From assembly GCF_013112485.1 (NCBI RefSeq), contig NZ_JABFHG010000007.1, positions 186,001-250,000 of the forward strand: 64,000 nucleotides of DNA. Direction: 5' to 3'. The DNA is from Roseicella sp. DB1501. Its GTDB lineage: Bacteria; Pseudomonadota; Alphaproteobacteria; Acetobacterales; Acetobacteraceae. Positions within the stretch are counted from its first letter, which is position 1; every line of letters starts with the position of its first letter. Both the position numbers and the translations under genes were made by a program. The notes under the pieces are model-generated. The model was not told where the DNA came from. It made no database searches and worked only from the letters and a program-made list of their open reading frames with translations. Positions 788 to 17,442 of the stretch are shown here, one piece after another.

Positions 788-845
788 GTCGGCGCACAGG
801 ATCTGCTCTATGAGCCGCCGATCCGCATGGGGGAGAGCGAGAGCG

Positions 846-1070
846 ATGGCCGCGGAGGGTCCTGTCTATCTGCGCTGGCGCGCCGGACGCCCGGCACCGG
901 AGGAGGAGCGCTTCGACACGCTGGATGCTGCGCTGGATGCGGTCGAGGCCCGCTGGGAGAGCCTGCAACACCAGGCCCCGCAGATCCTCGACACCCGCCG
1001 GCTGCTGCTGCTTAGCACGAGCGAGCTGCTGGAGATGGCCGCGGAGGAGGGCGACCCTCCCTCGGGCTGA
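846..1070 (+). CDS. Small conserved-looking protein of unknown function
   Basis: A 74-residue acidic, probably cytoplasmic protein without signal peptide or membrane segment. I do not recognise a family. It reads like a genuine small gene: an RWRAGRPAPEEERF segment, then a predicted helix rich in Asp, Ala and Glu, and a LLLLSTSELLEMA tail. The ATG at 846 is preferred because residues encoded from the earlier ATG at 810 are Arg-rich and unlike the rest, but neither start has a strong ribosome-binding site. It follows the RND gene by about 60 bp and converges on the HWE kinase. Existence is moderately likely; function unknown. Confidence 0.5.
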   Translation: MAAEGPVYLRWRAGRPAPEEERFDTLDAALDAVEARWESLQHQAPQILDTRRLLLLSTSELLEMAAEEGDPPSG

Positions 1071-1088
1071 TACCCGCGGCCCGGCCGC

Positions 1089-2539
<1,451 letters not shown>

Positions 2540-2543
<4 letters not shown>

Positions 2544-3013
2544 GCGCCCGGCTCGGCCTCCGGTGCGTCGCGCCCCTCGCGCGGAAGCTCGTTCAACACT
2601 GCCCAGAAGGCGCCGATATCGCGGACTGCCTCGAAGAATTCGCGGTGGCCGACGGGCTTCACGACGAAGGCGTTGACGCCGAGCCCGTAGCTCCGCACCA
2701 GATCCTGCTCCTCGCGCGAGGAGGTGAGCATCACCACCGGGACATGCCGGATCCGCGCATCGTTGCGAATCTGCTCGAGCACCTCCAGCCCGTCGACCCG
2801 CAGCAGCTTGATGTCGAGCAGCACCACGGCCGGCAGCAGCGCCTCGCTCTCGTCCGGGGCGTTGCTGCGGCGTTGCAGGATGTCGAGCGCCTCCACCCCG
2901 TCGCGGGCGACCACCACGGGATTTGCCAACCTGGACCGCTCCAGGGCGATCAGGGTCAACTCCACATCGTTCGGGCTGTCCTCCACGAGCAGGATCGGCC
3001 GCAGCTGCGCCAT
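2540..3013 (-). CDS. CheY-like (Rcp1-type) single-domain response regulator
   Basis: A 157-residue stand-alone receiver of the type usually encoded beside phytochromes. The acidic pair is in LLVEDSPND, the phospho-acceptor is Asp67 in VVLLDIKL, with Thr97 in VMLTSS and Lys119 in VVKPVG. The ~45-residue loop before Asp67 and the long alpha4 region are typical of phytochrome-linked Rcp1 regulators. Its ATG lies one base after the stop of the bacteriophytochrome gene and its stop overlaps the GTG start of the HWE kinase. The gene order therefore implies that it is phosphorylated by the upstream phytochrome. It has no DNA-binding or enzymatic output, so signalling must go on by protein contact or phosphotransfer. 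Confidence 0.93.
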
Positions 3014-3014
3014 G

Positions 3015-5285
3015 TCATATCGTCTCCTTCACGGGCGCGCCGCGCACTGGCAAGGTGAAGTGGAATGTTGCACCCTCGCCGAGCCGACCCTCGGCCCAGC
3101 TCCGGCCGCCATGGCGCTCGACGATGCGCCGCACATTGGCCAGGCCGATCCCGACGCCCTCGAACTCCTCCGGGCGATGGAGGCGCTGGAACACGCCGAA
3201 CAGCTTGTGCGCATAGGCCATGTCGATGCCGGCCCCATTGTCGCGCACACTGAAGATGTATTCGTTCTTCTCTAATCTGCAACCGACCTCGATGACGGCC
3301 GGATCCCTCCCCCGCGTATATTTTAGTGCGTTCGAGAGCAGGTTCTGGAACACCTGCCGCAGCATGGCGGGGTCGGTCCAGATACCCGGCAAGGGGCCGA
3401 TCCGCCATTCGACCGGTCGCCCGGCCTGTTCCAGCTCGAGCGAGCGGATCACCTCGCCGGCCAGCACCCCGGCCTCGAATTCCAGCGGCACCAGGGCGGA
3501 CCGGCCCATCTGCGAGAAGGCGAGCAGCGAATCCACCAGCCGACCGGCCGTTTCCGCGGCCTGGCCGATGGTGCCGAGGTAACGGCGGCCGCGCTCGCCG
3601 AGCCTGTCGCCTTCCTGCTCGCGCAGCAGCTCCGTGAAGCCGACGATATGGCGGAAGGGCGCGCGCAGGTCGTGCGAGACCGAGTAGGAGAAGGCCGCCA
3701 GTTCGCGGTTCACCTGCTCCAGCCGGCCGGCCAGCGCCGCGCGCTCCTCGGCGGCACGCAGGACGACGCCAACGATGGCATTGCGCAGATTCCCCGCGGC
3801 CTCGATCTCCGCCGCGCTCCAGGCCGCCGAGCGTCCTCGTACCGTCTCCGCCCAGGCGGCGAAGGAGCGGCGCGGATGCAGCCGCCCGGGCGTGGCTTCG
3901 AGCTCGCCCGGCTTGCGCGGATCGCCGCCCCACCGAACGGTGCTGACCACCTCGGGCCGGAACCAGACCACGAAGCTCGGATGCAGCCGGGACACCGCAA
4001 TCGCCAGCACGCCGCTCGCGGTTCCGGCCATGGCCGCCGCATCGGGCAGGACAGCGCCGAGGGACTCGGTCGCAAAGACCTCCTCCGGCCCGCGCGCCGC
4101 GATCCAGTCGGTGATGCGCCGCAGCGCGTCCTCGGGCGGCGTGCGGCCGATGCGGGTGCAGCCCCGCTCGGTCACCACCGCGGCGCCGGTCGCCGCGGTC
4201 AGCCCGAGCAGGTCGTCCGGATGGGCGAGCAGCCCCGCGGCAAAATCCTGGGCCGCCGCCATGCGCGCGAGCAGCCGCCCTTCGATATCCCGCAGCCGGG
4301 CCCGCGCCTCGGCATGCGCCATCTCCTCGCGGGCCGTGACGCGGAGGGCGAAGATCTGGCCGACCAGGTCGCAGGCATTCCGCGCCGCAAAAGACAGCTG
4401 GCGGGGCTCGGCATGGTGGCAGGAGATCAGCCCCCAGAGCCCGCCATCCCCGCGCAGCACGGAGACCGACATCGAGGCCGGCGTGCCCATGTTGCGCATG
4501 TATTCCAGATGCACCGGCGAGACGCTGCGCAGCCCGGCATAGGTCAGGTCGAGCGGCGGCGCGTCGCTGGGGGCGAGGATCGGCACCGGCACGTAGCCTG
4601 CATCGGCGATCAGGCGCTGCGGGTTGATCTCATAGAGCCGGCGCGCCTGGGCGGGGATGTCGGCGGCGGGAAAGCGCAGGCCGAGATAGGAGGGCAGGCG
4701 CCCGTTGCCGTCCTCGGCCAGCACGACGCCGTCCCAATGCGGCTCGAAACGATAGACCAGGACGCGATCGAAGCCGGTGATGCGGCGGACCGTCGCGGCA
4801 GCCAGGCCGGCCAGCTCGTCGATCCCCGCCACGCGGCCGAGTCGGGCGAAGGCCTCGCGCAGGCCGGGATAGAAGGTCTCCAGCGTTGCCCCAGCCTCCG
4901 GGCCCGGGCTTCCGGCCTCCGCCTCGAATTCCAGGATCACATGGCCATCCGGCGCGCGATGCCCGATCGCCTGCAGCGCTGGGCCGGCCAGGTCGGGGAG
5001 GCGGCCGAGCTGCATCTGCCCGGTCTCCGGCAGGCGGCGCAGCGCATCCGGCAGCGCCGCGAAGGGCTCGCCCGCGAAAAGCTCGGCGATCGGCTGGCCG
5101 AAGGCGGCCGGCAGCCCGGGCCGCAGCAGGGCGGCGGCGCTGGCGCTGGCATGGCTCAGCCGCAACGCCTCGCCCGCGAAGGCGAGGAGGTGGCCATGCG
5201 GCTGGATGCTGCCGGGGATGTGGTTGGGTTCGCGGTCGCAGCCGATGGTCGGATCGGCCGGCGGCGACGCCATGCCCGACGTCAT
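3015..5285 (-). CDS. bphP: Bacteriophytochrome histidine kinase (PAS-GAF-PHY-HisKA-HATPase)
   Basis: A red/far-red photoreceptor kinase of about 756 residues. Near the N terminus the biliverdin-binding Cys16 sits in TIGCDREPNHIPGSIQPHG, the hallmark of bacteriophytochromes. The GAF domain carries RFPAADIP and SPVHLEYMRNMG, and the PHY domain carries WFRPEVVSTVRWGGDP with a PRRSF tongue. The kinase has an H-box FSYSVSHDLRAPFRH around residue 537 and an ATPase with NLLSNALKYT and DNGAGID. The ATG at 5285 is preferred; the frame stays open to 5384 but that extension is Arg-rich and precedes the usual start. It is the first gene of a tight operon with a CheY-like regulator and an HWE kinase. No heme oxygenase gene for making biliverdin lies in the window. 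Confidence 0.95.
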   Translation of the reverse strand: MTSGMASPPADPTIGCDREPNHIPGSIQPHGHLLAFAGEALRLSHASASAAALLRPGLPAAFGQPIAELFAGEPFAALPDALRRLPETGQMQLGRLPDLAGPALQAIGHRAPDGHVILEFEAEAGSPGPEAGATLETFYPGLREAFARLGRVAGIDELAGLAAATVRRITGFDRVLVYRFEPHWDGVVLAEDGNGRLPSYLGLRFPAADIPAQARRLYEINPQRLIADAGYVPVPILAPSDAPPLDLTYAGLRSVSPVHLEYMRNMGTPASMSVSVLRGDGGLWGLISCHHAEPRQLSFAARNACDLVGQIFALRVTAREEMAHAEARARLRDIEGRLLARMAAAQDFAAGLLAHPDDLLGLTAATGAAVVTERGCTRIGRTPPEDALRRITDWIAARGPEEVFATESLGAVLPDAAAMAGTASGVLAIAVSRLHPSFVVWFRPEVVSTVRWGGDPRKPGELEATPGRLHPRRSFAAWAETVRGRSAAWSAAEIEAAGNLRNAIVGVVLRAAEERAALAGRLEQVNRELAAFSYSVSHDLRAPFRHIVGFTELLREQEGDRLGERGRRYLGTIGQAAETAGRLVDSLLAFSQMGRSALVPLEFEAGVLAGEVIRSLELEQAGRPVEWRIGPLPGIWTDPAMLRQVFQNLLSNALKYTRGRDPAVIEVGCRLEKNEYIFSVRDNGAGIDMAYAHKLFGVFQRLHRPEEFEGVGIGLANVRRIVERHGGRSWAEGRLGEGATFHFTLPVRGAPVKETI

Positions 5286-5441
5286 GGCGCCGCCACCAGG
5301 TCGATGCCGGGCGTCGCGCGGCGCCGGACGGGTTTCCAGTGCGACGCGGCCGTTGCGCCTCGCCGTGGTCGCGGCGCCCGACATCCCTCTCCCGGGCTTC
5401 GCGGAATGGCCAGGCAGGCAGCGGATCGGCCGGCCGCTGGA

Positions 5442-5499
5442 AACAGGGACTGGAGCATCCTCCCTTCACCCGGGTTCACGGCAAATGCTCCAGCCTGTT
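5442..5499. repeat. Inverted repeat enclosing the first CCCGGG element
   Basis: The arms AACAGGGACTGGAGCAT (5442-5458) and ATGCTCCAGCCTGTT (5485-5499) are complementary apart from a two-base bulge. The loop contains the element TTCACCCGGGTTCACGG. It could form a hairpin in RNA, act as an operator, or be a remnant of a mobile palindromic unit. It lies about 155 bp upstream of the bacteriophytochrome start. Confidence 0.6.
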
Positions 5500-5566
5500 G
5501 TTTCGAAGGCATCGTCACCCGATCCGGCGGGTCCAGCGATCGGGTCTTGATCTAGAACCTGATCGG

Positions 5567-5583
5567 TTCACCCGGGTTCATGG
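5567..5583. repeat. Second copy of a 17-bp CCCGGG-centred element
   Basis: TTCACCCGGGTTCATGG matches the copy at 5465-5481 (TTCACCCGGGTTCACGG) at 16 of 17 positions, with 102 bp between the two starts. The core is nearly palindromic. Short inverted flanks (CCTGA at 5558-5562 and TCAGG at 5590-5594) echo the longer arms of the first copy. Paired spacing upstream of a light-sensor operon suggests an operator, but this is inference. Confidence 0.5.
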
Positions 5584-5694
5584 CCCATGTTCAGGAGCGG
5601 TGCCGAACCGCGCGATTTGCGCGCTTCGGCAGCATGTCCAGGGCGGGCGATCCGGGTCGCAGACGCCACTGCCCCGCCGGTGGCGGGCGACGGC

Positions 5695-8400
5695 TCAGGC
5701 CGCGACGGTGATGCAGGTGCCGGGCGTGCCGAGCGCCGTCACCTCCATCGCCGCTCCGACGCGCTCGAGCATCGCCCGGACCAGCCGCATCCCGAGACCG
5801 CCGCCATCCGTGCGCGCGCGGCTGTCCCAGTCCTGCGGCAGGCCGCGGCCGAAGTCGCAGACCGTCATCTCGACCCCGCCCACCGGGCGGGACCGCACGT
5901 GGACCTCCACCCGGCCCGGCTCCTCGGGCGCATAGGCGTATTTCAGCGCATTGGTGACGAGTTCGGCGGCGACGAGCGAGAGGGCGACCGCCGTGCGGCT
6001 CGGCACCATTACCCCCCGCTCGGCATTGACATCGAGGCGCCGGTCCGCGCCCGCCATGCCGACCGCAAGATCGTCGCAGAGCCGCCGCAGCGTCTCGCCG
6101 AGGTCGACATTCTCGATATCCTCGGAGTCCTGCAGGCTGTCATGCACCCGCGCCACGCTCATCACCCGCGCATAGGTGTCGTCGAAGGCGGCCGCCGCCT
6201 GCGGGTCCTTCACCCGCCGCGCCTGCAGCCGCATCACGCTGGCCACGATCTGCAGCGAGTTCTTGACCCGGTGATCCACCTCGCGCGCCAGCACCTCCTT
6301 CTGCTCGAGCGCCCGGGCGAGCACTTCCTGCTTGGCGGTGAGCTCGGCGATGCGGCGGCCCTGACGCAGGATGATGCCGGCGATCCCGGCGGCGAAGGCC
6401 TCGGCCGTCGTGACCTGCCAGGGTGCCCAGGGTGCCGAATGGCCCCGCCGTTCCTCGACCCACCGTTCGAAGGACCGGCGGGGCAGCACCGCCTGGGTGG
6501 CGCTGTCCGCCAGTACCGGCTTGCGCGGGTCACCGCCCCAGACCACGGTCGAGACGACCTCCGGCCGGAACCAGAGCAGCACGTAGTCCCGCTCCGCCTC
6601 GCGGCCGAGCAAGACCGCCAGCAGGCCGCTCGCCTCGCCCTGCCAGGTTGCGGCCGGCGGGAAATGCGCTGCGAGCTGATCGGTCGCAAAGGCGCGGCGC
6701 CCCGCCGGCAGGCTCTGCCGCAGCCAATCCGCCAGGGCCGGCAGCATCGCGGCCGGCGGCGTCCGGCCGAGCGGCGCGATCCGGCCCTCGCCCACCACCG
6801 CCGCGCCTGTGGCGCCGAAGAGGTCGAGCAGCGTCGTCTCGCCCGTGGTGGCGCCATCGGTCAGCGCCGCGACGAAATCGTCCGAGGCCGCCATGCGCTC
6901 GAGCAGGGCGTTGCGCACCTCGAGGGAGGTCTCGTGCTCGCGCCAGATGGCGCGGCTCTCGAGCTCCTGGATGCGTAGCGCGAAGGCATCGGCGACCACC
7001 CCCGCCAGCGCCCGCGTCTCCGGCGTGACGTAGTGCGGCCGGCGGTGATGCCCGATCACCAGGCCCCAGAGCCGTCCCTCGACCAGGATCGAGAGCGACA
7101 TCGAGCCGTTGACGCCGAGGTTGCGCTGATATTCGAGGTGGATCGGCGACAGCGCCCGGGTCTGGGCGAAGCTGAGATCGACCGTCTCATTGCCCGCCCT
7201 CGGCTCCGCCCGCACCGCCGAGGGCACGGCGTCGCGGTCGACGACGAAGCGCGCCGGGGCGCGGGCATAGAGCGCGCGGGCCTGGGACGGGATGTCGGAG
7301 GCGGGGAAGCGCAGGCCCAGCAGGGACCGATCCCAATCGGAGACCTTGTCCTCGGCGATCGCCTCGCCGTTCCAGTCCGGATCGAAGCGGTAGACCAGCA
7401 GGCGCTCGAAGCCGGTCATGGCGTGCAGTTCGTGCACCGTGACGGCCGCGGCATCGAGCAGGCTGCGCGACGCGCGCAGCCGGGCGATGGCGGCCTGCGC
7501 CTGCATGGCGCTTGCGGCATGAAAATCCTCGGGCTGCTCCGGCACCCGCTCCAGCTCCACCACCAGCCGGCCATCGTGCAGGTGGACGGTCGCCAGGCAG
7601 GTCACCCCGCGCTGGCCGAGCCGCAGCGTGTCGCGCCACGGATGGGCAGGGTCGTGCAGCGCGCCGGTCTCGAGCGCCGCACGGATCGCCTGCACCGCCG
7701 GGACCGGCAGGGCGATGGCGAGCCCATGGCCGATGATCTCCTCCGGACCGGCGCCATCGAGCAGGTCGGCGAGGCTGTCGCTGCAGGCACGCACCTTGAG
7801 GCCCGGCGTCGTCGGGTCGCATGCCAGCATCGCCGCATGCGGCTGCACGGCGCCGGCGAGATGGATCGGCTCGCGCTCGCAGATATCCGGATCGACGGGC
7901 TCGGCCCGGGCGCGCCGGGCCACGGCGTCCTGGGCGCGATCGGCCGCCAGGCGGTGCCGCGTGGGCGGCAGGGTGCCGAGCACCCGATGCATGATCCAGT
8001 AGCGCCCGGGCCGGCTGGACTGGCGCAGATGCACCTCGACGCGCAACGGCTGCGGCTCGAAGCCGAAGGTGAAGTGGAACCGCTCGTTCAGCGCGCCGGA
8101 CCGGATGCCTTCGAGGAACCGGCCATGGAAGGCCGGCAGGTTGGTGCAGGGCGCGATCTCATGGAAGAAGTCGCGGCCGAGCATGGCAGCGGCCAGCCGG
8201 CCGGAGAGGCGGCTCTCCATGGCGTTGTAGAACAGCACCCGGCCCCCGCCATCGAGCTGGATCACGCCGAAGGGCAGCGCATCGAGCTCGGCGGGGCTGA
8301 GCTGGTCGAGCTGCGCCAGCACGGCGGCGATCTCGGCCTCCACGGCGTCCTGCGGCAGCGCCTCGCCCTCCCCGCTCACCATGACCGGGCGATCCGCCAT
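5695..8400 (-). CDS. PYP-bacteriophytochrome hybrid histidine kinase (Ppr-like)
   Basis: A 901-residue dual photoreceptor. Residues ~25-140 are a photoactive yellow protein domain: Tyr58, Glu62, Arg68 and Cys85 align with PYP Tyr42, Glu46, Arg52 and Cys69 at a constant offset of 16, and APCTNLPAF matches the chromophore-cysteine loop. Residues ~168-670 are a bacteriophytochrome core with biliverdin Cys174 in DICEREPIHLAGAVQPH, RFPASDIP and SPIHLEYQRNLG in the GAF domain, and WFRPEVVSTVVWGGDP plus PRRSF in PHY. The C terminus is a HisKA_2-type kinase with REVDHRVKNSLQ near residue 708 and ELVTNALKYAYAP. The architecture and length match Ppr of Rhodocista centenaria (884 residues), though with a different kinase subtype. 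The start is uncertain: ATG 8400 or 8382; the frame is open to 8844 but that part is not protein-like. Confidence 0.93.
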   Translation of the reverse strand: MADRPVMVSGEGEALPQDAVEAEIAAVLAQLDQLSPAELDALPFGVIQLDGGGRVLFYNAMESRLSGRLAAAMLGRDFFHEIAPCTNLPAFHGRFLEGIRSGALNERFHFTFGFEPQPLRVEVHLRQSSRPGRYWIMHRVLGTLPPTRHRLAADRAQDAVARRARAEPVDPDICEREPIHLAGAVQPHAAMLACDPTTPGLKVRACSDSLADLLDGAGPEEIIGHGLAIALPVPAVQAIRAALETGALHDPAHPWRDTLRLGQRGVTCLATVHLHDGRLVVELERVPEQPEDFHAASAMQAQAAIARLRASRSLLDAAAVTVHELHAMTGFERLLVYRFDPDWNGEAIAEDKVSDWDRSLLGLRFPASDIPSQARALYARAPARFVVDRDAVPSAVRAEPRAGNETVDLSFAQTRALSPIHLEYQRNLGVNGSMSLSILVEGRLWGLVIGHHRRPHYVTPETRALAGVVADAFALRIQELESRAIWREHETSLEVRNALLERMAASDDFVAALTDGATTGETTLLDLFGATGAAVVGEGRIAPLGRTPPAAMLPALADWLRQSLPAGRRAFATDQLAAHFPPAATWQGEASGLLAVLLGREAERDYVLLWFRPEVVSTVVWGGDPRKPVLADSATQAVLPRRSFERWVEERRGHSAPWAPWQVTTAEAFAAGIAGIILRQGRRIAELTAKQEVLARALEQKEVLAREVDHRVKNSLQIVASVMRLQARRVKDPQAAAAFDDTYARVMSVARVHDSLQDSEDIENVDLGETLRRLCDDLAVGMAGADRRLDVNAERGVMVPSRTAVALSLVAAELVTNALKYAYAPEEPGRVEVHVRSRPVGGVEMTVCDFGRGLPQDWDSRARTDGGGLGMRLVRAMLERVGAAMEVTALGTPGTCITVAA

Positions 8401-8788
8401 GCGGCCAGCGGATCGCGGGGCGATGCGCTGGCCGGGCGGCCCAACGACGTCAGCCGCATGCGCGCCGGATCGGCAGCCCGTGCCGTTCGTGCGTCGCCTC
8501 GATAGGCTGGCCGCCACGGCAGCCATCCGCAACGGGCCCGGCGTCGCGCCCGCCGGCCGACTGGCCCCGATCTTCCCGTTCCGCCCAGCCCGAGAAAACG
8601 CCATCTGGTTTCGACATGGGCTTCCACAATAACGGCCCGCGAGGGGCGATGCCCATGGATGGACGCGTTGGGCCGAACAAATATGGACCTGCGATGGGCG
8701 CTCGCCAATTCTTCCGTGGTCAATACGAGGACAGTTCGACCTGTTTTGGTACTGTCCGGCGAAGCTGTGCGCGATCCCGTTGCATGGC
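8401..8788. other. Intergenic region upstream of the PYP-phytochrome gene
   Basis: These 388 bp have no supportable gene in any frame. They separate the 3' end of the secreted-protein series from the start of the hybrid photoreceptor gene and so should carry the latter's promoter. The only structure I can point to is a weak hairpin at 8729-8757 (arms GGACAGT and ACTGTCC), placed as a 3' terminator for the gene ending at 8789. Confidence 0.5.
8729..8757 (-). terminator. Possible 3' hairpin after the secreted protein gene
   Basis: The arms GGACAGT (8729-8735) and ACTGTCC (8751-8757) are perfectly complementary with a 15-nt loop, 32 bp beyond the stop codon of the minus-strand gene ending at 8789. 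There is no clear T-run, so this is only a weak candidate. Confidence 0.3.
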
Positions 8789-9364
8789 TCAGCGTGCCTG
8801 CACCGGCGCGCTCTGGACGATATTGCCATTGCCATCGACGACATTGACCGCGCCGCCGCCGTTGCGCCTGGTCCGGCCGCCCACCGTCGCCACCTGCTGC
8901 TGCGCGGTCGGCCCGCCGGCCGCCCCGGCGCCCTGGAGCTGGACGAGGTTGTTGCTGCCGTTGGTCACCGCGACCGGGGCCTCGAAGCGGTTCACCACGC
9001 GGGTGCGCTGGTCGAGGATGATCTGGGTGAAGACCGGGTCCGGCGCCGGCGGGGGCGGCGGCTGCCGGCTGGCGGCCTTCGGCTGGCCGAAGGCGAAGCC
9101 TTCGAGATAGCCGCCATCGCCGCGCAGCCTGGCGATCATCTCCTGGTGGCGCAGCCGCCGCTCGGCCGGCGTCGGCGTGACCTGCAGGTCGCTCGCGGTG
9201 ATGCCGGGAAAGGTGAAGGGCAGCGGCCGCGCCAGACCCCGCGGGCCGCCGGAGGCGAGGGCCTGCGAGGAGAGGCTGAGGCCGCCACTGTCCTGCGCCG
9301 GCGCCGGAACCGGCGCCGTCAGGGCGAGGGCGAGCAGAACCAGGGCGGGACGCAGGGAACGCAT
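8789..9364 (-). CDS. Secreted Asn/Gln-rich protein of unknown function
   Basis: A 191-residue exported protein. An AAGGAGT ribosome-binding site precedes the ATG, and the first ~25 residues form a classic signal peptide ending in PAPAQ. The middle carries a Pro-rich linker (PPPPPAPDP). The C-terminal third is rich in Gly, Asn, Gln and Val (TNGSNNLVQLQG, VDGNGNIVQSA), a pattern reminiscent of curlin-type strand-turn repeats, though too short to assign a family. It is the last of four minus-strand genes that each encode a small exported protein with its own ribosome-binding site. I infer an extracellular or periplasmic structural role; an enzymatic one is not suggested by anything visible. Confidence 0.75.
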   Translation of the reverse strand: MRSLRPALVLLALALTAPVPAPAQDSGGLSLSSQALASGGPRGLARPLPFTFPGITASDLQVTPTPAERRLRHQEMIARLRGDGGYLEGFAFGQPKAASRQPPPPPAPDPVFTQIILDQRTRVVNRFEAPVAVTNGSNNLVQLQGAGAAGGPTAQQQVATVGGRTRRNGGGAVNVVDGNGNIVQSAPVQAR

Positions 9365-9507
9365 GGTGGAACTCCTTCCTCGGCAATGGCGGAAGACTGG
9401 CCCTGCGAGGCGGTGGCGGCTGTGGCATGGGCCACAGGGGAAGGCGGATTCCCCGATAGCGGGATGCGCCGACCGGCCCCGACGCAGCGACCCGCCGCCT
9501 GCCGGCC

Positions 9508-10473: not shown

Positions 10474-11255
10474 CTCACTGGCCGCCGATGGTGACGACCT
10501 GCTGGTCGGCGAAGGCGCCCTTGCCGAGGGCGCCGTTGCGGTTGTTGCCGCCATAGACCTTGTCGAGGCTGCCGCGGCCGACGGCGCTGCCGCCCATGGT
10601 CAGCACCTGCTGCTGCGCGCTGCTGTTGCGGCCGAGGGCAGCGTTCAGGTTCTGCCCGCCATGGACCGAGCTCTGCGCCCCGCGACCCACCGCCGTGCCG
10701 CCCAGCGTCGTCACCGATTGCCCGGCGAAGCTGTTCACGCCCCGCGCCAGGTTGGCGTTGCTGCCGCCCAGCACGTAGCTCGACGCACCACGCCCGATCG
10801 CCGTGCCGCCCACCGTCGTGCCGTCCTGCAGCGCCATGCTGCCCCGGCCCAGCGCCATGTTGCGGTTGTCCCCGCCCAGCGTCACCGACCGGCCGCCCGC
10901 CCGCGCCATGCCGCCGATCGTCGTCGCGCTCTGCCCGGCGAAGCTGTTCTTGCCCACCGCCGTGTTCACGTTGCCGCCGCCGCGGGTGATGCTCACCCCG
11001 CCGCTCTGCAGGCCTTCCGCCTGCGCCACGCTCGCCACCGAGGCAACGCCCGCCAGCAGGGCCAGGGCAGCGGGGAGGATCATTTTGCGCATCTCGAGGG
11101 TCCTTCTCTCTGTCTCTCTCCAGGGCGCCAGCCCCCCGGGAACCACCCCCAGGCGCCAGCGGTCGCTCTCGACACCCAGACCCTACAAACCCACCGCCAT
11201 CCCCCCTGTGAGCCACACCACACCACCCAGCACTTTTCGCAGAAGGCCAGATGAG
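10474..11255. repeat. 782-bp direct repeat, copy 1
   Basis: Matches 16661-17442 without a single insertion or deletion (constant offset 6,187 bp). I count nine base differences, clustered at the N-box codon near 10539 and around 10850-10910. It spans the whole secreted-repeat gene plus about 160 bp upstream of its start. No terminal inverted repeats or transposase accompany it. It looks like a recent duplication or a pair kept alike by gene conversion, and recombination between copies could delete the intervening island. Confidence 0.95.
10475..11092 (-). CDS. Secreted 36-residue-repeat protein, copy 1
   Basis: A 205-residue exported protein. After a signal peptide (residues ~1-25, ending VAQAEG) nearly all of it consists of five units of about 36 residues. 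Each unit opens with GGxNxNxAxG, continues S-x-A-x-Q and then T-x-GG, and most close with A-x-GRG and a Val. The fixed Asn, Gln, Ser and Gly ladder suggests a beta-roll or amyloid-like stack. It recalls curlin repeats and also the heads of YadA-type adhesins, but no YadA anchor domain is present. GAAGGA precedes ATG 11092. It is first in a series of four exported-protein genes and has a near-identical paralogue at 16662-17279 (four residue differences). Likely a secreted surface or fibre subunit; this is inference. Confidence 0.85.
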   Translation of the reverse strand: MRKMILPAALALLAGVASVASVAQAEGLQSGGVSITRGGGNVNTAVGKNSFAGQSATTIGGMARAGGRSVTLGGDNRNMALGRGSMALQDGTTVGGTAIGRGASSYVLGGSNANLARGVNSFAGQSVTTLGGTAVGRGAQSSVHGGQNLNAALGRNSSAQQQVLTMGGSAVGRGSLDKVYGGNNRNGALGKGAFADQQVVTIGGQ

Positions 11256-11287: not shown

Positions 11288-12691
11288 ATGCCGCCGACCA
11301 GCCTGCGTCCCCTGATCGGCCCGGCGGCGCTCACCGGCGCCTGCTTCCTGCTGCAGGCCGCCCTGCCACTGCTCGGCGGCCCTGCCGTGCCGGCGCTGCC
11401 GCGCACGACGCTCGGCGCCGTCGCCGGGATCGGCGCCTGGCTCGGCCTCGCCTGGAGCGGCGCGCGGCTCTTCGACCTGCTGCTGCTGCGGGCAACGCAG
11501 GCGGCGCGGCGCGGCACCCCCTATCCGCGGCTGCTCTCGGATATGGTGCGGGCGCTGCTCTTCCTCGCGGCGGGGGCGGCGATCCTGATGCTGGTCTTCG
11601 ACCAGTCGGCGCTCGGCCTTCTCACCACCTCCGGCGTCGCGGTCGCGGTCATCGGCTTCGCGCTGCGCAACATCATCAGCGACCTCTTCTCCGGCATCGC
11701 GCTCGGCATCGACGCGCCCTACCGCATCGGCGACTGGATCGAGACCGCCGAGGGCTGCACCGGCCGCGTCGTCGAGGTGAGCTGGCGCACAACGCGGCTG
11801 GTGACGCGCGAGGGCGTGACGCTGACCGTGCCGAACGGGCTGATCGCCGCGCATCGCCTGGTGAATTACGGCGCCGCCGGACGCTTCCGCGCCAGCCTGC
11901 GCCTCGCCCTCGATCCGGCGCTGCCGGCGGAGCGGGCGAAGCGCTTGCTGCTCGGTGCCGCGCTCGATGCCGAGCGGCAGGTGCCGGGGCTGGCCGCGGA
12001 TGTGCAGCTACAGGAATTCGCGGATGGCGCCGCGATCTACATGCTGCGCTTCCAGGTGCCCGATTTCGGCAGCGAGGCCGCCTGCCGCGACGCCGTCGCC
12101 ACCGCCGCGCTGCGCGCCTTGCAGCATGCCGGCCTCGGCCCCGCCCGTCCGGCCCGCGCGCTGCAGCTCGAACGCGCCGCGCCCCGGCGATCGCCGCGCG
12201 CGGTGCTGCTGCAGCGGAGCGCCCTCTTCGGCGATTTCCCGCCTGAGGAGCGGTCGGCGCTGGAATCCATGATGCAGGAGCGGGCGCTGCCGCGCGGCGC
12301 GACGGTGGTGCGGCAGGGCGAGGCCGGCGACAGCCTCTTCCTGCTCGCCGAGGGGGCGCTCGAGGTGCGGGTCCGTCGGGACGGCATGGACATCCCACCC
12401 GACCGCATGGGGCCGGGCGAGGTGTTCGGCGAGATGTCGCTGCTCACCGGCCAGCCGCGCAGCGCGACCGTGACGGCCGCCACCGAGGCGCTGGTCTTCG
12501 AGTTGCGGCGCGAGCATCTCGACCCGGTGCTGCGCCGGCGGCCGGAGCTGGCCGAGAAGCTCGCGACGATCATGGCCGGGCGGCAGGCGCGCAATGCCCG
12601 GGCGGCGGCGGGCGAGCCGCTGGCCGAGCCCGGCCTGCCGCAGCGGGAGGACCTGCTCGGCCGGCTGCGCGCCTTCTTCGGCCTGGCCTGA
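11288..12691 (+). CDS. MscS-family channel with C-terminal cyclic nucleotide-binding domain
   Basis: A 467-residue inner-membrane protein. Three to four hydrophobic segments in the first ~130 residues lead into the MscS pore helix and beta domain (GVAVAVIGFALRNIISDLF, then GDWIETAEG). Residues ~315-435 are a cNMP-binding fold with the phosphate-binding cassette FGEMSLLTGQPRSATVTA, which keeps the Glu and Arg used to bind cAMP or cGMP. Such fusions open in response to a cyclic nucleotide rather than, or besides, membrane tension. It starts 196 bp from the divergently transcribed repeat-protein gene. The nucleotide cyclase 1.3 kb downstream is a plausible source of ligand. The ligand itself and ion selectivity cannot be read from sequence. 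Confidence 0.93.
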   Translation: MPPTSLRPLIGPAALTGACFLLQAALPLLGGPAVPALPRTTLGAVAGIGAWLGLAWSGARLFDLLLLRATQAARRGTPYPRLLSDMVRALLFLAAGAAILMLVFDQSALGLLTTSGVAVAVIGFALRNIISDLFSGIALGIDAPYRIGDWIETAEGCTGRVVEVSWRTTRLVTREGVTLTVPNGLIAAHRLVNYGAAGRFRASLRLALDPALPAERAKRLLLGAALDAERQVPGLAADVQLQEFADGAAIYMLRFQVPDFGSEAACRDAVATAALRALQHAGLGPARPARALQLERAAPRRSPRAVLLQRSALFGDFPPEERSALESMMQERALPRGATVVRQGEAGDSLFLLAEGALEVRVRRDGMDIPPDRMGPGEVFGEMSLLTGQPRSATVTAATEALVFELRREHLDPVLRRRPELAEKLATIMAGRQARNARAAAGEPLAEPGLPQREDLLGRLRAFFGLA

Positions 12692-12808
12692 TCCGCCGCG
12701 CGGCTTTCTCGCCGCCGGTGTGGCCTGCTTCACAGCCGCCGCCGCGCCCCGGCGGCAGTCTCTGGGCATCGGCACAAGCCGCCACCGTGAGAGAGAGGGG
12801 TTCGCACC

Positions 12809-13531
12809 ATGTCGCAGGTCCGTCACCGCATCGCCGGCCTCGCCGCCCTGGCCTCGGTCCTGCTCGGCGGCTCGGCCCTGGCGCAGGAGGTGCGCATCTT
12901 CGAGGAGGCGCCGCCGCTCGAGTTGCTGCGCAGCATCATGGTGCCGGACTCCCGCCCCGGGCTGAGCCGCCGCATCGTCCTCGGCGCCCCGGCCGCCGAT
13001 GCTGCCCCGGCCGCGCAAGCGCAGGAGGCCCCGTCCCCCGCCCCCATGCCGCTGGCCGCCGCCATGGAGGCCGAGCCGGAGCCCACCGCCGAGCCGGCGC
13101 CGCGCCGGCCCCGCCGCCGCGCCGCGCCGAGCACCCAGCTCGCCGCCGCCGGCAACACCCTGCCCCTGCCCGCCGCCCCGGCCGCCGAGGCGCCCGCCGC
13201 CGGCAGCATCGGCTTCCGCATCAACTTCGCCATGAACTCCGATGCGGTGCCGGCGAGCGCCCATGCCTTCCTCGACCGCGTCGGCGAGCTGATGCGCGAC
13301 CAGCCGCAGCTCAAGCTGCAGGTCGAGGGCCATACCGATGCGTTCGGCCCCGACGACTACAACCTGCAGCTCTCGCAGCGCCGCGCCGCGGCCGTCGCCT
13401 ACTACCTGATGCAGCGCCAGGGGGTGGAGATGACCCGCCTGGTGGTGCTCGGTCTTGGCGAGGGCGTGCCGCTCACCACGAACGGCTACGATCCGCGCAA
13501 CCGCCGGGTCCAGTTCGTGCGGGTGGAGTAG
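12809..13531 (+). CDS. OmpA-family peptidoglycan-binding protein
   Basis: A 240-residue exported protein: a signal peptide cleaved near SALAQEV, a Pro/Ala-rich low-complexity spacer (residues ~65-130), and an OmpA C-terminal domain (~135-240). The latter carries the peptidoglycan-binding signature VEGHTDAFGPDDYNLQLSQR and the closing NRRVQFVRVE. There is no beta-barrel, so it probably tethers the cell wall in the periplasm, like a soluble OmpA or Pal-type protein without a lipobox. A GAGAGAGG ribosome-binding site lies ahead of the ATG. A small exported protein gene follows five bases after its stop and is probably co-transcribed. Confidence 0.92.
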   Translation: MSQVRHRIAGLAALASVLLGGSALAQEVRIFEEAPPLELLRSIMVPDSRPGLSRRIVLGAPAADAAPAAQAQEAPSPAPMPLAAAMEAEPEPTAEPAPRRPRRRAAPSTQLAAAGNTLPLPAAPAAEAPAAGSIGFRINFAMNSDAVPASAHAFLDRVGELMRDQPQLKLQVEGHTDAFGPDDYNLQLSQRRAAAVAYYLMQRQGVEMTRLVVLGLGEGVPLTTNGYDPRNRRVQFVRVE

Positions 13532-13536
13532 GGTGG

Positions 13537-13875
13537 ATGCCCGCCCGCCGCACGCCGATCCTGCCGCTGGCCGTGCTGGGATTGCTCCTCCTCGCCCTGC
13601 CCGCCGCGGCGCGGGTGGTCGAGGTGGCGCCCGGCGCGGCGGCGGAGCGGGGCGGCACGCCGCCCTCCGGCCAGGGCGCGCCCTGCAGCTGCACCGCCTT
13701 CCTGCCGCTCTTTCCCTTCGGCTGGTACAGCCTGTCCGATGCCGAGTTGCAGCGCCGCTGGACCGCCCCGTTGCAGGCCGCCATCATCGCCGAGCGGGCG
13801 CGCTGGCGCGCGGCGCGCATCGCCGGACGGCCGCGCTTCGGGCAGACGCCGCCATCGCTGCGCCGCGCACGATAG
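13537..13875 (+). CDS. Small secreted protein with CSC motif
   Basis: A 112-residue exported protein. The signal peptide ends near LPAAARV. The mature chain is short, with a PCSC motif followed by an aromatic patch (FLPLFPFGWY) and a basic, helical C-terminal half (RARWRAARIAGRPRFG). It begins five bases after the OmpA gene, so the two are almost surely one transcript and may work together at the envelope. GTAGGGTGG ahead of the ATG is a modest ribosome-binding site. I do not recognise a family; the Cys-Ser-Cys could bind a metal or form a disulphide, but nothing visible decides it. Confidence 0.7.
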   Translation: MPARRTPILPLAVLGLLLLALPAAARVVEVAPGAAAERGGTPPSGQGAPCSCTAFLPLFPFGWYSLSDAELQRRWTAPLQAAIIAERARWRAARIAGRPRFGQTPPSLRRAR

Positions 13876-13991
13876 AGCAAATGATCGCGCGGAGCGCTCT
13901 CAGCAGGGCGTGACGCGCGCGGGCCGGCGGTGGCCATTGCCTGCCGCCCCCGCCCGCGCCGAGGATGCGGGTTTTCCAGGGCGAGGAGGCG

Positions 13992-15815
13992 ATGGCCCGG
14001 CGGATGCGCGATGCGGCGCGGGCGGCGCTCGTCCTGGCCATGGCGACCGGGCTGGGCCTGGCGCTGGTGCAGCCGCCCATGCCCCTCGCCGCGGCGGAGC
14101 GGCTGTTCCAGGCGGCGGCGCTGCGCTGGCTGGCGCCCGTCGCGCCGCCGCATCCGCGGCTGGTGCTGATCGGCATCACCGAGGAAACGCTGGCCGCCTT
14201 TCCCTACCGTTCCCCGGTCGATCGCGGCTTCCTCGCCGGGCTGGTCGACCGGCTCGCCGCCGCGGGGGTGGTGGCGATCGGCCTCGACATCCTGCTCGAC
14301 CGTCCGACCGAGCCGGCCAAGGATGCGGCGCTGCGCGCGGCGATCGCCCGGCAGGCGGTGCCGACGGTGCTCGTCAGCCTTGGTCCGGAGACGCCGCTGC
14401 CGCCCGAACGGGCGGCGGTGCTGCAGGGCTTCGCCCAGGGCGCCCCGACCGGCGACGCCAACCTGGCCCGCGACCGGTTCGACGGGCTGGTGCGGGTGCA
14501 TCGGCCGCGCCATCCGGCGACGGGCGAGCCGAGCTTCCCGGCCGCCCTCGCCGCGGCGATCGGCACAGCGCCGCCCCGCGAGCCCTTCACCATGACTTGG
14601 CGGCGGACGGCGCTGGGCCCGGCCGCGCCGCTCTATCCGGCCGAGGCGGTGCCGCTGCTGCCGGCCGACTGGCTGCGCGGCCGGGTGGCGCTGATCGGCA
14701 GCCTGGTGCCCGGCACGGACGAGCATCGCAGCCTCGGCTCGGCCTTCGGGCCGCCGAGCTTCGGCGTCGAGATCCATGCCCAGGTGCTGGCGCAGATCCT
14801 CGACGGCATGGCCGGCGCCGGCATCGCCGGTTGGCAGGCCGGACTCGCCACCTTCGGCCTGTCGCTGCTCGGCCTGCTGGTCGGGCTGCGGCTCGCCGGG
14901 CGCCGGCTGATCCTGGCGCTCGGCCTGCTCGGCCTCGCCTGGCCCGGGGCGGTGCTGGCGGCAACGGCGGCCGGGCATCCCGGCTGGCCGGCCCTGGCGC
15001 CGGTCCTCGCCGGCCTCCTCGCCGGCGGCCTGGCGCGCGCCGTCGCGGGCGCGGCCGAGCGGCGCGACCGGGCGGTGCTGCACAGCCTCTTCGCCCGCTT
15101 CCTGAGCGCCCCCGTCGCCGAGGCGCTGCTGCGCGACCGCGAGCTCTTCCTCGCCGGCGGCCGACCGAAGCCGCAGGAGCTGACCGCGACCGTGCTCTTC
15201 GCCGACATCGCCGGCTTCACCACGATCTGCGAGCGCCTGCCGCCGGAGCCGCTGATCGACTGGCTCGACCGCTACATGGACACGATGGTGCAGGTGGTGA
15301 CGGCGCATGAGGGCGTGGTGCTGCGCTTCATCGGCGACGGCATCCTCGCCGCCTTCGGCGTGCCGGTGCCGCGCCGCGACCCGGCGGCGATCGCCCGCGA
15401 CGCCGAGGCCGCGGCGCGCTGCGCCCTTGCGATGGAGCAGGCGATGGCGGCGCTGAATGCCGGCTGGCGCGAGGCCGGCCTGCCGGAGGCGGGGCTGCGC
15501 ATCGGCATCCATACCGGGCCGCTGATCGCGGGCAGCCTCGGCCATGGCGAGCGGATGGAGTTCTGCCTGCTCGGCGACACGGCGAATGTCGGGGCGCGGC
15601 TGGAGCAGCTCGGCAAGCAGCATGGCGGCGCGGGGCCCGGCGCCTGCACCATCATCCTCGGCGAGCCGAGCTGGCGCCTGCTGGCGGGCAGCCTGCCCGG
15701 CCTGCCGATCGGCAGCGTGGCGCTGCGCAACCGGGGCGCGCCGATGGCGGCCTGGCGGATCGATTCCTGCGCGGTGGCGAGGCTGGACAAGGCGCCGAGC
15801 CTGGAGATGCGCTGA
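13992..15815 (+). CDS. CHASE2-domain adenylate/guanylate cyclase
   Basis: A 607-residue membrane-bound class III nucleotide cyclase. An N-terminal membrane segment is followed by an extracytoplasmic CHASE2 sensor (~30-290, with LVLIGITEETL and VVAIGLDILLDRP), three more membrane segments and a cytoplasmic cyclase domain (~400-590). Both metal-binding aspartates are present, in VLFADIAGFT and RFIGDGILAAF, and the LRIGIHTGPLIAGSLG and NVGARLEQL segments are intact, so it should be active. The substrate (ATP or GTP) is not certain. The start is ambiguous: ATG 13965, 13992 or 14004 are all in frame. It ends one base from the convergent Crp/Fnr gene and lies near a cNMP-gated channel, suggesting a local second-messenger circuit. 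Confidence 0.92.
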   Translation: MARRMRDAARAALVLAMATGLGLALVQPPMPLAAAERLFQAAALRWLAPVAPPHPRLVLIGITEETLAAFPYRSPVDRGFLAGLVDRLAAAGVVAIGLDILLDRPTEPAKDAALRAAIARQAVPTVLVSLGPETPLPPERAAVLQGFAQGAPTGDANLARDRFDGLVRVHRPRHPATGEPSFPAALAAAIGTAPPREPFTMTWRRTALGPAAPLYPAEAVPLLPADWLRGRVALIGSLVPGTDEHRSLGSAFGPPSFGVEIHAQVLAQILDGMAGAGIAGWQAGLATFGLSLLGLLVGLRLAGRRLILALGLLGLAWPGAVLAATAAGHPGWPALAPVLAGLLAGGLARAVAGAAERRDRAVLHSLFARFLSAPVAEALLRDRELFLAGGRPKPQELTATVLFADIAGFTTICERLPPEPLIDWLDRYMDTMVQVVTAHEGVVLRFIGDGILAAFGVPVPRRDPAAIARDAEAAARCALAMEQAMAALNAGWREAGLPEAGLRIGIHTGPLIAGSLGHGERMEFCLLGDTANVGARLEQLGKQHGGAGPGACTIILGEPSWRLLAGSLPGLPIGSVALRNRGAPMAAWRIDSCAVARLDKAPSLEMR

Positions 15816-15816
15816 C

Positions 15817-16521
15817 TCACCCCTCGGCGGTGGCGATCTCCTGCAGCACGGCGCGGTCGCGGATGACGAGGAAGCCGCCCTCGGCCTGCAGGTGGCCGGC
15901 GCGGATCCAGTCGTTCAGGTGCTTGTTCACGCTCTCCCGCGAGGCGCCGATCAGGTTGCCGATCTGCTGCTGCGACAGCTTGATGTTGAGCCTGAGGCCG
16001 CCCGGCACCGGCTGGCCGAAGGTCTCGGCGAGGCGGAGCAGGCCGCTCGCCAGGCGCGAGGGCGCCTCGCGCAACAGCGCATCCTCGAGATGTGCGCTGG
16101 TCTGGCGCAGCTTCTGGCAGAGCGCGGCCAGCAGGCGGGACAGGGCCTCGGGGTTGCCGGCGAGGAAGGGAAGGAAGCGGTCGCGCTCCAGCACCAGCAG
16201 GTCGCTCTCCTCGAGCGCCACGGCATCGGCGGTGCGCGGCTGGCCGTCGAGGATGGCGATCTCGCCGAAGATGCCGCCGGTATCGATGATGTTGAGCAGC
16301 AGCTCGCGCCCATCCGGCGAGATGGTGCAGATCTTCACCCGGCCGCGGATGACGGCCATCATGCTGGTGCCGGGATCGCCCTTCTGGAAGATCACCGCGC
16401 CCCGCCTGTGCCGCGCCAGATGCGCGGAGGCGGCGAGGCGGCGGAGGTCGTCGCGCTGCAGGTGCCGCAGGATCGGGTGGCCGGCCAGGATCGCTTCCCG
16501 GTGCTGCTCCGCGATCGCCAT
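15817..16521 (-). CDS. Crp/Fnr-family transcriptional regulator
   Basis: A 234-residue DNA-binding protein. Residues ~15-130 are a cNMP-binding beta-roll with the cassette FGEIAILDGQPRTADAVA, which keeps the Glu and Arg needed for cyclic nucleotide phosphate; the residue after Arg is Thr instead of Ser. Residues ~165-230 are a winged helix-turn-helix with LSQQQIGNLIGASRESVNKH as recognition region. There are no N-terminal cysteines, so an Fnr-type iron-sulphur sensor is unlikely. A GGGAGG site precedes ATG 16521, which is preferred over the longer frame to 16578. It converges tail to tail with the CHASE2 cyclase gene, supporting a role as receiver of that enzyme's product. Confidence 0.92.
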   Translation of the reverse strand: MAIAEQHREAILAGHPILRHLQRDDLRRLAASAHLARHRRGAVIFQKGDPGTSMMAVIRGRVKICTISPDGRELLLNIIDTGGIFGEIAILDGQPRTADAVALEESDLLVLERDRFLPFLAGNPEALSRLLAALCQKLRQTSAHLEDALLREAPSRLASGLLRLAETFGQPVPGGLRLNIKLSQQQIGNLIGASRESVNKHLNDWIRAGHLQAEGGFLVIRDRAVLQEIATAEG

Positions 16522-16660
16522 GCCCGCCTCCCGGCGCCGTTGCGACACGAGATTGGACGCCGCGCCGGCCGAGGGCAAGCCTGGCCCCGGAGGCGAAGGC
16601 GGGATGCGCCCGGGCCGGTCAGGCCGGGCGCATCCCCTTCCCTGGCGTCAACCCTCTGGC

Positions 16661-17442
16661 CTCACTGGCCGCCGATGGTGACGACCTGCTGGTCGGCGAA
16701 GGCGCCCTTGCCGAGGGCGGCGTTGCGGTTGTTGCCGCCATAGACCTTGTCGAGGCTGCCGCGGCCGACGGCGCTGCCGCCCATGGTCAGCACCTGCTGC
16801 TGCGCGCTGCTGTTGCGGCCGAGGGCAGCGTTCAGGTTCTGCCCGCCATGGACCGAGCTCTGCGCCCCGCGACCCACCGCCGTGCCGCCCAGCGTCGTCA
16901 CCGATTGCCCGGCGAAGCTGTTCACGCCCCGCGCCAGGTTGGCGTTGCTGCCGCCCAGCACGTAGCTCGACGCACCACGCCCGATCGCCGTGCCGCCCAC
17001 CGTCGTGCCGTCCTGCAGCGCCATGCTGCCACGCCCGGCCGCCAGGTTGCGGTTGTCCCCGCCCAGCGTCACCGACCGGCCACCCCCCCGCGCCATGCCG
17101 CCGATCGTCGTCGCGCTCTGCCCGGCGAAGCTGTTCTTGCCCACCGCCGTGTTCACGTTGCCGCCGCCGCGGGTGATGCTCACCCCGCCGCTCTGCAGGC
17201 CTTCCGCCTGCGCCACGCTCGCCACCGAGGCAACGCCCGCCAGCAGGGCCAGGGCAGCGGGGAGGATCATTTTGCGCATCTCGAGGGTCCTTCTCTCTGT
17301 CTCTCTCCAGGGCGCCAGCCCCCCGGGAACCACCCCCAGGCGCCAGCGGTCGCTCTCGACACCCAGACCCTACAAACCCACCGCCATCCCCCCTGTGAGC
17401 CACACCACACCACCCAGCACTTTTCGCAGAAGGCCAGATGAG
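16661..17442. repeat. 782-bp direct repeat, copy 2
   Basis: Same orientation as 10474-11255 and about 98.8% identical by my count of nine substitutions, with no gaps. The identity stops abruptly just inside the common ATGAG at the upstream end and at the CTCACTGG preceding the stop codon at the other. Unique sequence on each side differs fully. The two copies bracket 5.4 kb of unique sequence. Confidence 0.95.
16662..17279 (-). CDS. Secreted 36-residue-repeat protein, copy 2
   Basis: A 205-residue exported repeat protein that differs from the copy at 10475-11092 at four positions: Gly/Ala in the last repeat, Met/Leu and Leu/Ala in the second, and Ala/Gly in the first linker. The signal peptide, the five 36-residue units and the upstream ~160 bp are shared, so promoter and ribosome-binding site are probably the same. 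Unlike copy 1 it is not followed by the other small exported-protein genes; its 3' neighbour is the Crp/Fnr gene on the same strand. It is transcribed divergently from the CsgG-like lipoprotein gene, which suggests a cargo-exporter link. Intact, with no sign of decay. Confidence 0.87.
   Translation of the reverse strand: MRKMILPAALALLAGVASVASVAQAEGLQSGGVSITRGGGNVNTAVGKNSFAGQSATTIGGMARGGGRSVTLGGDNRNLAAGRGSMALQDGTTVGGTAIGRGASSYVLGGSNANLARGVNSFAGQSVTTLGGTAVGRGAQSSVHGGQNLNAALGRNSSAQQQVLTMGGSAVGRGSLDKVYGGNNRNAALGKGAFADQQVVTIGGQ

Follow-up and report, generated by a model that had tools for sequence, protein, structure and literature searches.

The gene at positions 5695-8400 (minus strand) of the window, by which we mean the whole 64-kb stretch of DNA analysed here, codes for a photoactive yellow protein (PYP) domain, a bacteriophytochrome and a HisKA_2 histidine kinase on one chain. 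The protein is probably a Ppr-type bichromic sensor kinase, in which Cys85 would bind p-coumarate and Cys174 biliverdin, both inputs steering His710. This reading is favoured by the domain and residue matches, the kept PYP pocket, the dN/dS ratios, the PYP tree, the synteny of the locus and a heme oxygenase gene in the genome. Against it count the lack of a recognised tyrosine ammonia lyase (TAL) and PYP-type 4-coumarate CoA ligase (pCL) in the genome, a PYP score below the profile cut-off, two substitutions in the PYP pocket of the closest relative and the lack of a heme oxygenase gene in the window and its searched flanks.

Read from the ATG at 8400, the single gene comprises 901 codons and a stop; its frame is open upstream to 8964, and similarity to homologues starts at residues 7-50 (numbered from 8400). 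On the minus strand, the PYP domain (residues 29-144) occupies 7969-8316, with the Cys85 codon at 8148-8146, and is followed by the PAS_2 domain of the phytochrome core (7549-7881), whose first residue is Cys174 (codon 7881-7879), the GAF domain with the predicted biliverdin pocket (6970-7461), the PHY domain with a PRRSF tongue (6361-6921), the HisKA_2 dimerisation/phosphoacceptor domain with the H-box His710 (6067-6282) and the catalytic HATPase_c domain (5704-5985). The matches to PAS_2, GAF, PHY (149 bits), HisKA_2 (PF07568, 81.9 bits) and HATPase_c all exceed the Pfam cut-offs, and the kinase scores 36.1 bits as HWE_HK vs the 81.9 bits as HisKA_2. The phytochrome core matches the bacteriophytochrome chain 6bap (E 1.5e-88), where Cys174 is aligned to a Cys that we take to be the biliverdin-binding one. 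The motifs DIP, SPIHLEY, HH, PRRSF and WGGDP as well as the H-, N- and G-boxes, for all of which we presume the customary functional meaning, are intact. The chain has the marks of a bacteriophytochrome (PAS-GAF-PHY, a Cys upstream of PAS, DIP, the GAF His residues and a PRxSF tongue), of a HisKA_2/HWE kinase (H-box DHRVKN plus the N and G boxes of the ATPase) and of a Ppr-type protein (N-terminal PYP, bacteriophytochrome and histidine kinase on one chain).

The PYP domain is matched by the NCBIfam profile photo_yellow (TIGR02373) at residues 30-138 with an E value of 5e-36 and 123.5 bits. Residues 1-147 retrieve 33 distinct PDB sequences at E <= 0.001, all being PYP, Ppr or PYP-derived tags, and the best one is 1mzu, the Ppr of R. 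centenum (E 2.7e-36). As claimed in the first-pass annotation, Tyr58, Glu62, Arg68 and Cys85 fall at a constant +16 offset from the PYP residues Tyr42, Glu46, Arg52 and Cys69, with Ser66 in place of Thr50 at the same offset; its reading of the domains and of both chromophore cysteines was confirmed throughout. The residues of the p-coumarate site, Cys69, Tyr42 and Glu46 (PYP numbering is used from here on), are all present and Pro68 is likewise intact. The annotation had named an ordinary PAS domain as the outcome that would speak against a PYP. The stretch does pass the Pfam PAS cut-off with 33.7 bits, but it scores 123.5 bits as PYP, and the TIGR02373 E value, the uniformly PYP-related PDB matches and a tree that groups the domain with other PYP fusions and Ppr (see below) rule out a generic PAS domain carrying PYP-like residues by chance, to which we allow practically no probability. 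The TIGR02373 equivalog cut-off of 143 bits is not reached by the domain (123.5 bits, 128.1 in the genome search). This cut-off seems to be set for stand-alone PYPs, since eight fusion rows in the search of family genomes score only 105-134 bits; one out of 14 control genomes had a match, below the cut-off.

The fusion architecture as such is already known, the order PYP-PAS-GAF-PHY-HisKA_2/HWE being described for HWE/HisKA_2 PYP-phytochrome kinases in the accessible parts of PMC12826048 and PMC9664959. PYP-phytochrome fusions had been annotated as few, which underestimates them: a survey of 2025 counts 37 PYP-Phy-kinase and 15 PYP-Phy-GGDEF/EAL proteins (PMC12826048), and 16 further HisKA_2-type loci were found here. 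The kinase subtype, proposed as distinctive, indeed differs from the HisKA kinase of Ppr (PMC9664959), but is not unusual among multidomain PYPs, 37 of which are listed with HWE-HK in a table of the survey (PMC12826048). The Ser in position 50 is not a difference either; it is found also in Ppr of Rhodospirillum (Rhodocista) centenum, which likewise joins PYP, bacteriophytochrome and histidine kinase and whose PYP belongs to a neighbouring clade. As in the window, a further bacteriophytochrome that carries no PYP is present in R. centenum (PMC2890560). Ppd of Thermochromatium tepidum and its Thiohalocapsa homologues likewise carry an N-terminal PYP on a bacteriophytochrome. The output of Ppd, however, is GGDEF/EAL (PMC12826048) and not a kinase, and the five Thiohalocapsa fusions, which owe their GGDEF/EAL label only to an absent kinase match, have Thr50 where the window protein has Ser. 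Many methylobacterial Pprs are reported to have lost Cys69 (PMC9664959), whereas the p-coumarate pocket is complete in the window protein. Compared with the described HWE/HisKA_2 kinases, the window has a host that is probably a member of the Roseomonadaceae and a second bacteriophytochrome gene directly downstream, and it lacks a heme oxygenase gene nearby (window and two flanks searched). The word Roseomonas is absent from the main texts of PMC12826048 and PMC9664959, and literature searches for PYP together with Roseomonas or with Acetobacteraceae gave no hit in the collection searched.

A PYP match (E <= 0.001) was obtained in 41 of 397 genomes drawn from the family, and a PYP-bacteriophytochrome fusion is seen in eight of these 41, a count that includes the genome of the window and one broken frame and leaves out two weak matches with long frames (genomes G129 and G074). 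A profile search of genome contigs with the PYP-domain alignment gave 86 relatives, of which 80 loci were kept; the search was seeded with HisKA_2-type fusions and is uninformative on how frequent other types are. Besides the window, HisKA_2-type fusions occur in 16 loci, assigned to the type by H-box motif and similarity to the window's kinase and not by Pfam: Roseicella, Paracraurococcus, Belnapia (three), Dankookia, Roseomonas (three), Arenibaculum, Indioceanicola (from a plasmid record), Sphingomonas lenta, Methylobacterium (three) and a Caulobacteraceae metagenome-assembled genome (MAG). Seven of the 16 lie in genomes already among the PYP-positive ones of the family. Homology to the 15 relatives with a long frame is full-length, and the PYP domains are 48-69% identical. 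Ser50 and the biliverdin Cys are found in all 16 loci, Cys69, Glu46 and Arg52 in 15 each and Tyr42 in 14, so that close relatives do not show the missing cysteine that had been named beforehand as evidence against a PYP. In the closest relative, Roseicella frigidaeris (L074:6878-9556), the PYP pocket carries Y42C and P68S while Cys69 is kept; the pocket is therefore not strictly held even nearby. In the fusion of the Caulobacteraceae MAG (L099) the p-coumarate site is gone (Y42W, E46Q, R52V and C69E), but the biliverdin Cys is retained.

In a tree of the PYP domain alone (54 rows, 127 columns, midpoint root) the 17 HisKA_2 rows, window included, form one clade with support of 99/94, above the 95/80 threshold. 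The PYP of Ppr (1mzu) and that of Aerophototrophica, which has a HisKA-like H-box, adjoin this clade with 86/83 for all 19 rows, and the five Thiohalocapsa fusions join those with 89/83 for all 24, separate from the 30 other rows; both of these supports fall below the threshold. The position of the HisKA_2 clade beside Ppr, with Thiohalocapsa joining, suggests a single ancestral PYP-phytochrome fusion whose output domain may have been swapped later.

Comparison of the window with Roseicella (Nei-Gojobori) gave a dN/dS of 0.152/0.558 = 0.27 for the PYP domain, and 0.32 for PAS-GAF, 0.33 for PHY and 0.14 for the kinase. Purifying selection thus acts on the PYP domain, which is not drifting and therefore is probably functional. 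Its function could conceivably be another one: the phytochrome half would be the working photoreceptor, and the PYP domain, devoid of p-coumarate, would have a structural role, sense redox state or bind some other ligand. We regard this as unlikely. It would agree with the absence of a recognised TAL or PYP-type pCL from the genome, with the absence of a strong ligase match from 12 of 15 HisKA_2-fusion genomes, with the substituted pockets of Roseicella and the Caulobacteraceae MAG, and with the redox sensing proposed for methylobacterial Pprs that lack Cys69 (PMC9664959). On the other hand, Tyr42, Glu46, Arg52, Pro68 and Cys69 are intact here and Cys69 is shared by nearly all relatives, the PYP domain is under a constraint similar to that of the phytochrome core, and missing supply genes are weak evidence, as shown by the family genomes G207 and G212, which combine a stand-alone PYP above the cut-off with pCL and are devoid of any aromatic lyase, and by G006 with four above-cut-off PYPs and no pCL.

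A bichromic kinase would need two chromophores, and the first-pass annotation had proposed to look for the genes that supply them. Heme oxygenase is present as one PF01126 match (38.6 bits vs a cut-off of 23) on another contig; a profile search found none near the fusion, either in the window (186001-250000 of contig C45) or in the flanks at 170000-189000 and 250001-270000 of its contig. According to PMC9664959, fusions always have a heme oxygenase gene nearby. Here it was found near four of the 16 HisKA_2 loci (L082, L089, L090 and L099) and near that of Aerophototrophica, in flanks of unequal length and with a profile whose rows included L088, L089 and L090. Profile searches of the host genome (5.99 Mb, 47 contigs, 98.4% complete) recognised neither TAL nor a PYP-type pCL. 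Its sole PF00221 lyase, considered as a TAL candidate, is HutH (TIGR01225, 650 bits vs a cut-off of 539) and has hutI (462 bits) and hutU (938 bits) as neighbours. The best match to the PYP-type ligase profile TIGR02372 reaches 95.7 bits against a cut-off of 334.7.

At the default E value TIGR02372 matches 12 of 14 control genomes, and none of the 14 at either 1e-30 or 1e-20. The ligase was searched for at E <= 1e-30 in 31 family genomes, namely 30 of the 41 PYP-positive ones and one PYP-negative, and was matched in 17. It was found in 13 of the 15 genomes with a stand-alone PYP above the TIGR02373 cut-off, two of them (both Belnapia) also having a fusion, and in none of the six having a fusion but no such stand-alone PYP (Fisher p 0.0005, ignoring the kinship of the genomes). 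Four of the remaining nine PYP-positive genomes have it, one weakly (110.8 bits). With eight more fusion genomes searched at E <= 1e-20, a strong ligase match was obtained in three of 15 HisKA_2-fusion genomes, the window's included and Dankookia and Indioceanicola (plasmid record only) not counted. The three, two Belnapia and Arenibaculum, all possess another, non-fusion PYP gene, and Aerophototrophica likewise combines the ligase with a separate PYP gene besides its fusion. In the genomes searched, the ligase accompanies stand-alone PYPs and not these fusions, and this is added here to earlier work. A missing TAL was also considered as a mark of fusion genomes and rejected: a PF00221 lyase (E <= 1e-30) is present in 23 of the 31 family genomes, a count in which TAL is told from histidine ammonia lyase for the genome of the window only, and such a lyase is missing from two genomes in which PYP and pCL both occur.

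Of the pyp operons in the survey, 32% contain pCL and 5% contain TAL (PMC12826048), so the two supply genes are not strictly defining for a PYP. The survey also points out that they are frequently absent from pyp operons and proposes uptake (PMC12826048). For the window protein, p-coumarate would most likely come from the environment and be activated by an acyl-CoA ligase not dedicated to this purpose, and biliverdin would come from the one recognised heme oxygenase.

Another conceivable source of the p-coumaroyl group is a cluster of the aryl-polyene type on contig C12 at about 534-544 kb (region C12:534000-550000), comprising genes for a ligase, ketosynthases, a ketoreductase, an acyl carrier protein (ACP), LolA, MMPL and an acyltransferase. 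Its ligase is the best TIGR02372 match of the host genome, and aryl-polyene clusters with comparable gene content use a 4-hydroxybenzoyl starter (PMC8358021; PMC8041823). From this starter, one extension, ketoreduction and dehydration would give p-coumaroyl-ACP, the thioester of which might charge a fused PYP when TAL and pCL are missing. We consider this very improbable. The ligase of such clusters does not mark fusion genomes, as only eight of 16 searched have it, and co-occurrence does not support the idea, because Paracraurococcus sp. LOR1-02 lacks this ligase as well as pCL, and the two occur together in two Belnapia genomes. In the literature collection searched, no paper mentions both 'photoactive yellow protein' and 'aryl polyene'.

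Downstream of the fusion, three genes follow in the same orientation: a second bacteriophytochrome gene without PYP (3015-5285; PAS-GAF-PHY-HisKA-HATPase, PHY 196 bits), a single-domain response regulator gene (2540-3013; Response_reg 65.6 bits) and a gene for a REC-PAS-HWE hybrid histidine kinase identified with Pfam (1089-2543), which shares 4 nt with the regulator gene. The same order is conserved in Roseicella frigidaeris, with 77% identity for the second bacteriophytochrome, 87% for the regulator and 80% for the REC-PAS-HWE kinase. The frame of the second bacteriophytochrome is open from 5384, and the ATG at 5285 matches the sole start candidate seen in Roseicella; to this ATG the gap from the fusion is 409 nt in the window vs 79 nt in Roseicella. 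The other 15 HisKA_2 loci show no second bacteriophytochrome near the fusion within the available stretch, which is short in some; R. nepalensis, Dankookia, R. aerilata and Indioceanicola have kinases resembling the HWE one close to the fusion. According to PMC12826048, none of its 113 pyp operons encodes a phytochrome homologue, so that the two-phytochrome gene arrangement adds to the record.

The predicted bichromic kinase would work as follows. With p-coumarate on Cys85, the N-terminal PYP would act as a blue-light switch, and Ser50 suggests an absorbance maximum of about 434 nm if one follows a published trend derived from two Ser50 PYPs. With biliverdin on Cys174, PAS-GAF-PHY would be a red/far-red switch, and the two inputs would set autophosphorylation of His710 in HisKA_2. 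In Ppr, excitation of the PYP controls the kinase (PMC12826048). The phosphate would most likely pass to the response regulator of 2540-3013, the likely phosphoacceptor partner, and/or to the receiver of the REC-PAS-HWE kinase, and these partners may be common to the fusion and the second bacteriophytochrome.

Two similar palindromic elements with the core TTCACCCGGGTTCA (5450-5592, unstranded) lie 102 nt apart in the enlarged gap ahead of the second bacteriophytochrome gene, against 0.23 expected in 64 kb. No further copy is present in 151 kb of the same genome (window included) or in the Roseicella locus; judged by sequence, the elements are possibly operators. A promoter/terminator scan of 800-9400 gave 0 and 1 sites, not above chance, and an Rfam search of the window gave no match. 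Elsewhere in the window, two near-identical genes 6.2 kb apart (10475-11146 and 16662-17333, minus strand) code for what reads as a secreted-looking Gly/Asn repeat protein; 10474-10773 and 16661-16960 are 100% identical, and the first copy is without a Pfam match. Between them lies a cyclic-nucleotide set (11288-16578) of an MscS channel with a cNMP domain (11288-12691), a CHASE2-cyclase (13965-15815) and a CRP-type regulator (15817-16578), the latter two genes being convergent.

The one PYP match and the two PHY matches of the whole genome (E <= 0.001) all lie inside the window. The host had been placed outside the classic purple phototrophs; this does not agree with the presence, 65 kb beyond the window end on its contig, of two genes that match the reaction-centre family PF00124 and are read as pufL and pufM, and the lineage is probably phototrophic. 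The points that go beyond the published accounts consulted are the conserved order of the two phytochrome genes, the response regulator gene and the REC-PAS-HWE kinase gene, and a ligase that tracks stand-alone PYPs and is absent with most fusions. PYP-phytochrome kinases are thereby extended to a lineage of the Roseomonadaceae, probably phototrophic, with the two-phytochrome gene order in two species, and a question of PYP biology is sharpened, namely from where fused PYP domains would obtain their chromophore when the dedicated enzymes are absent.
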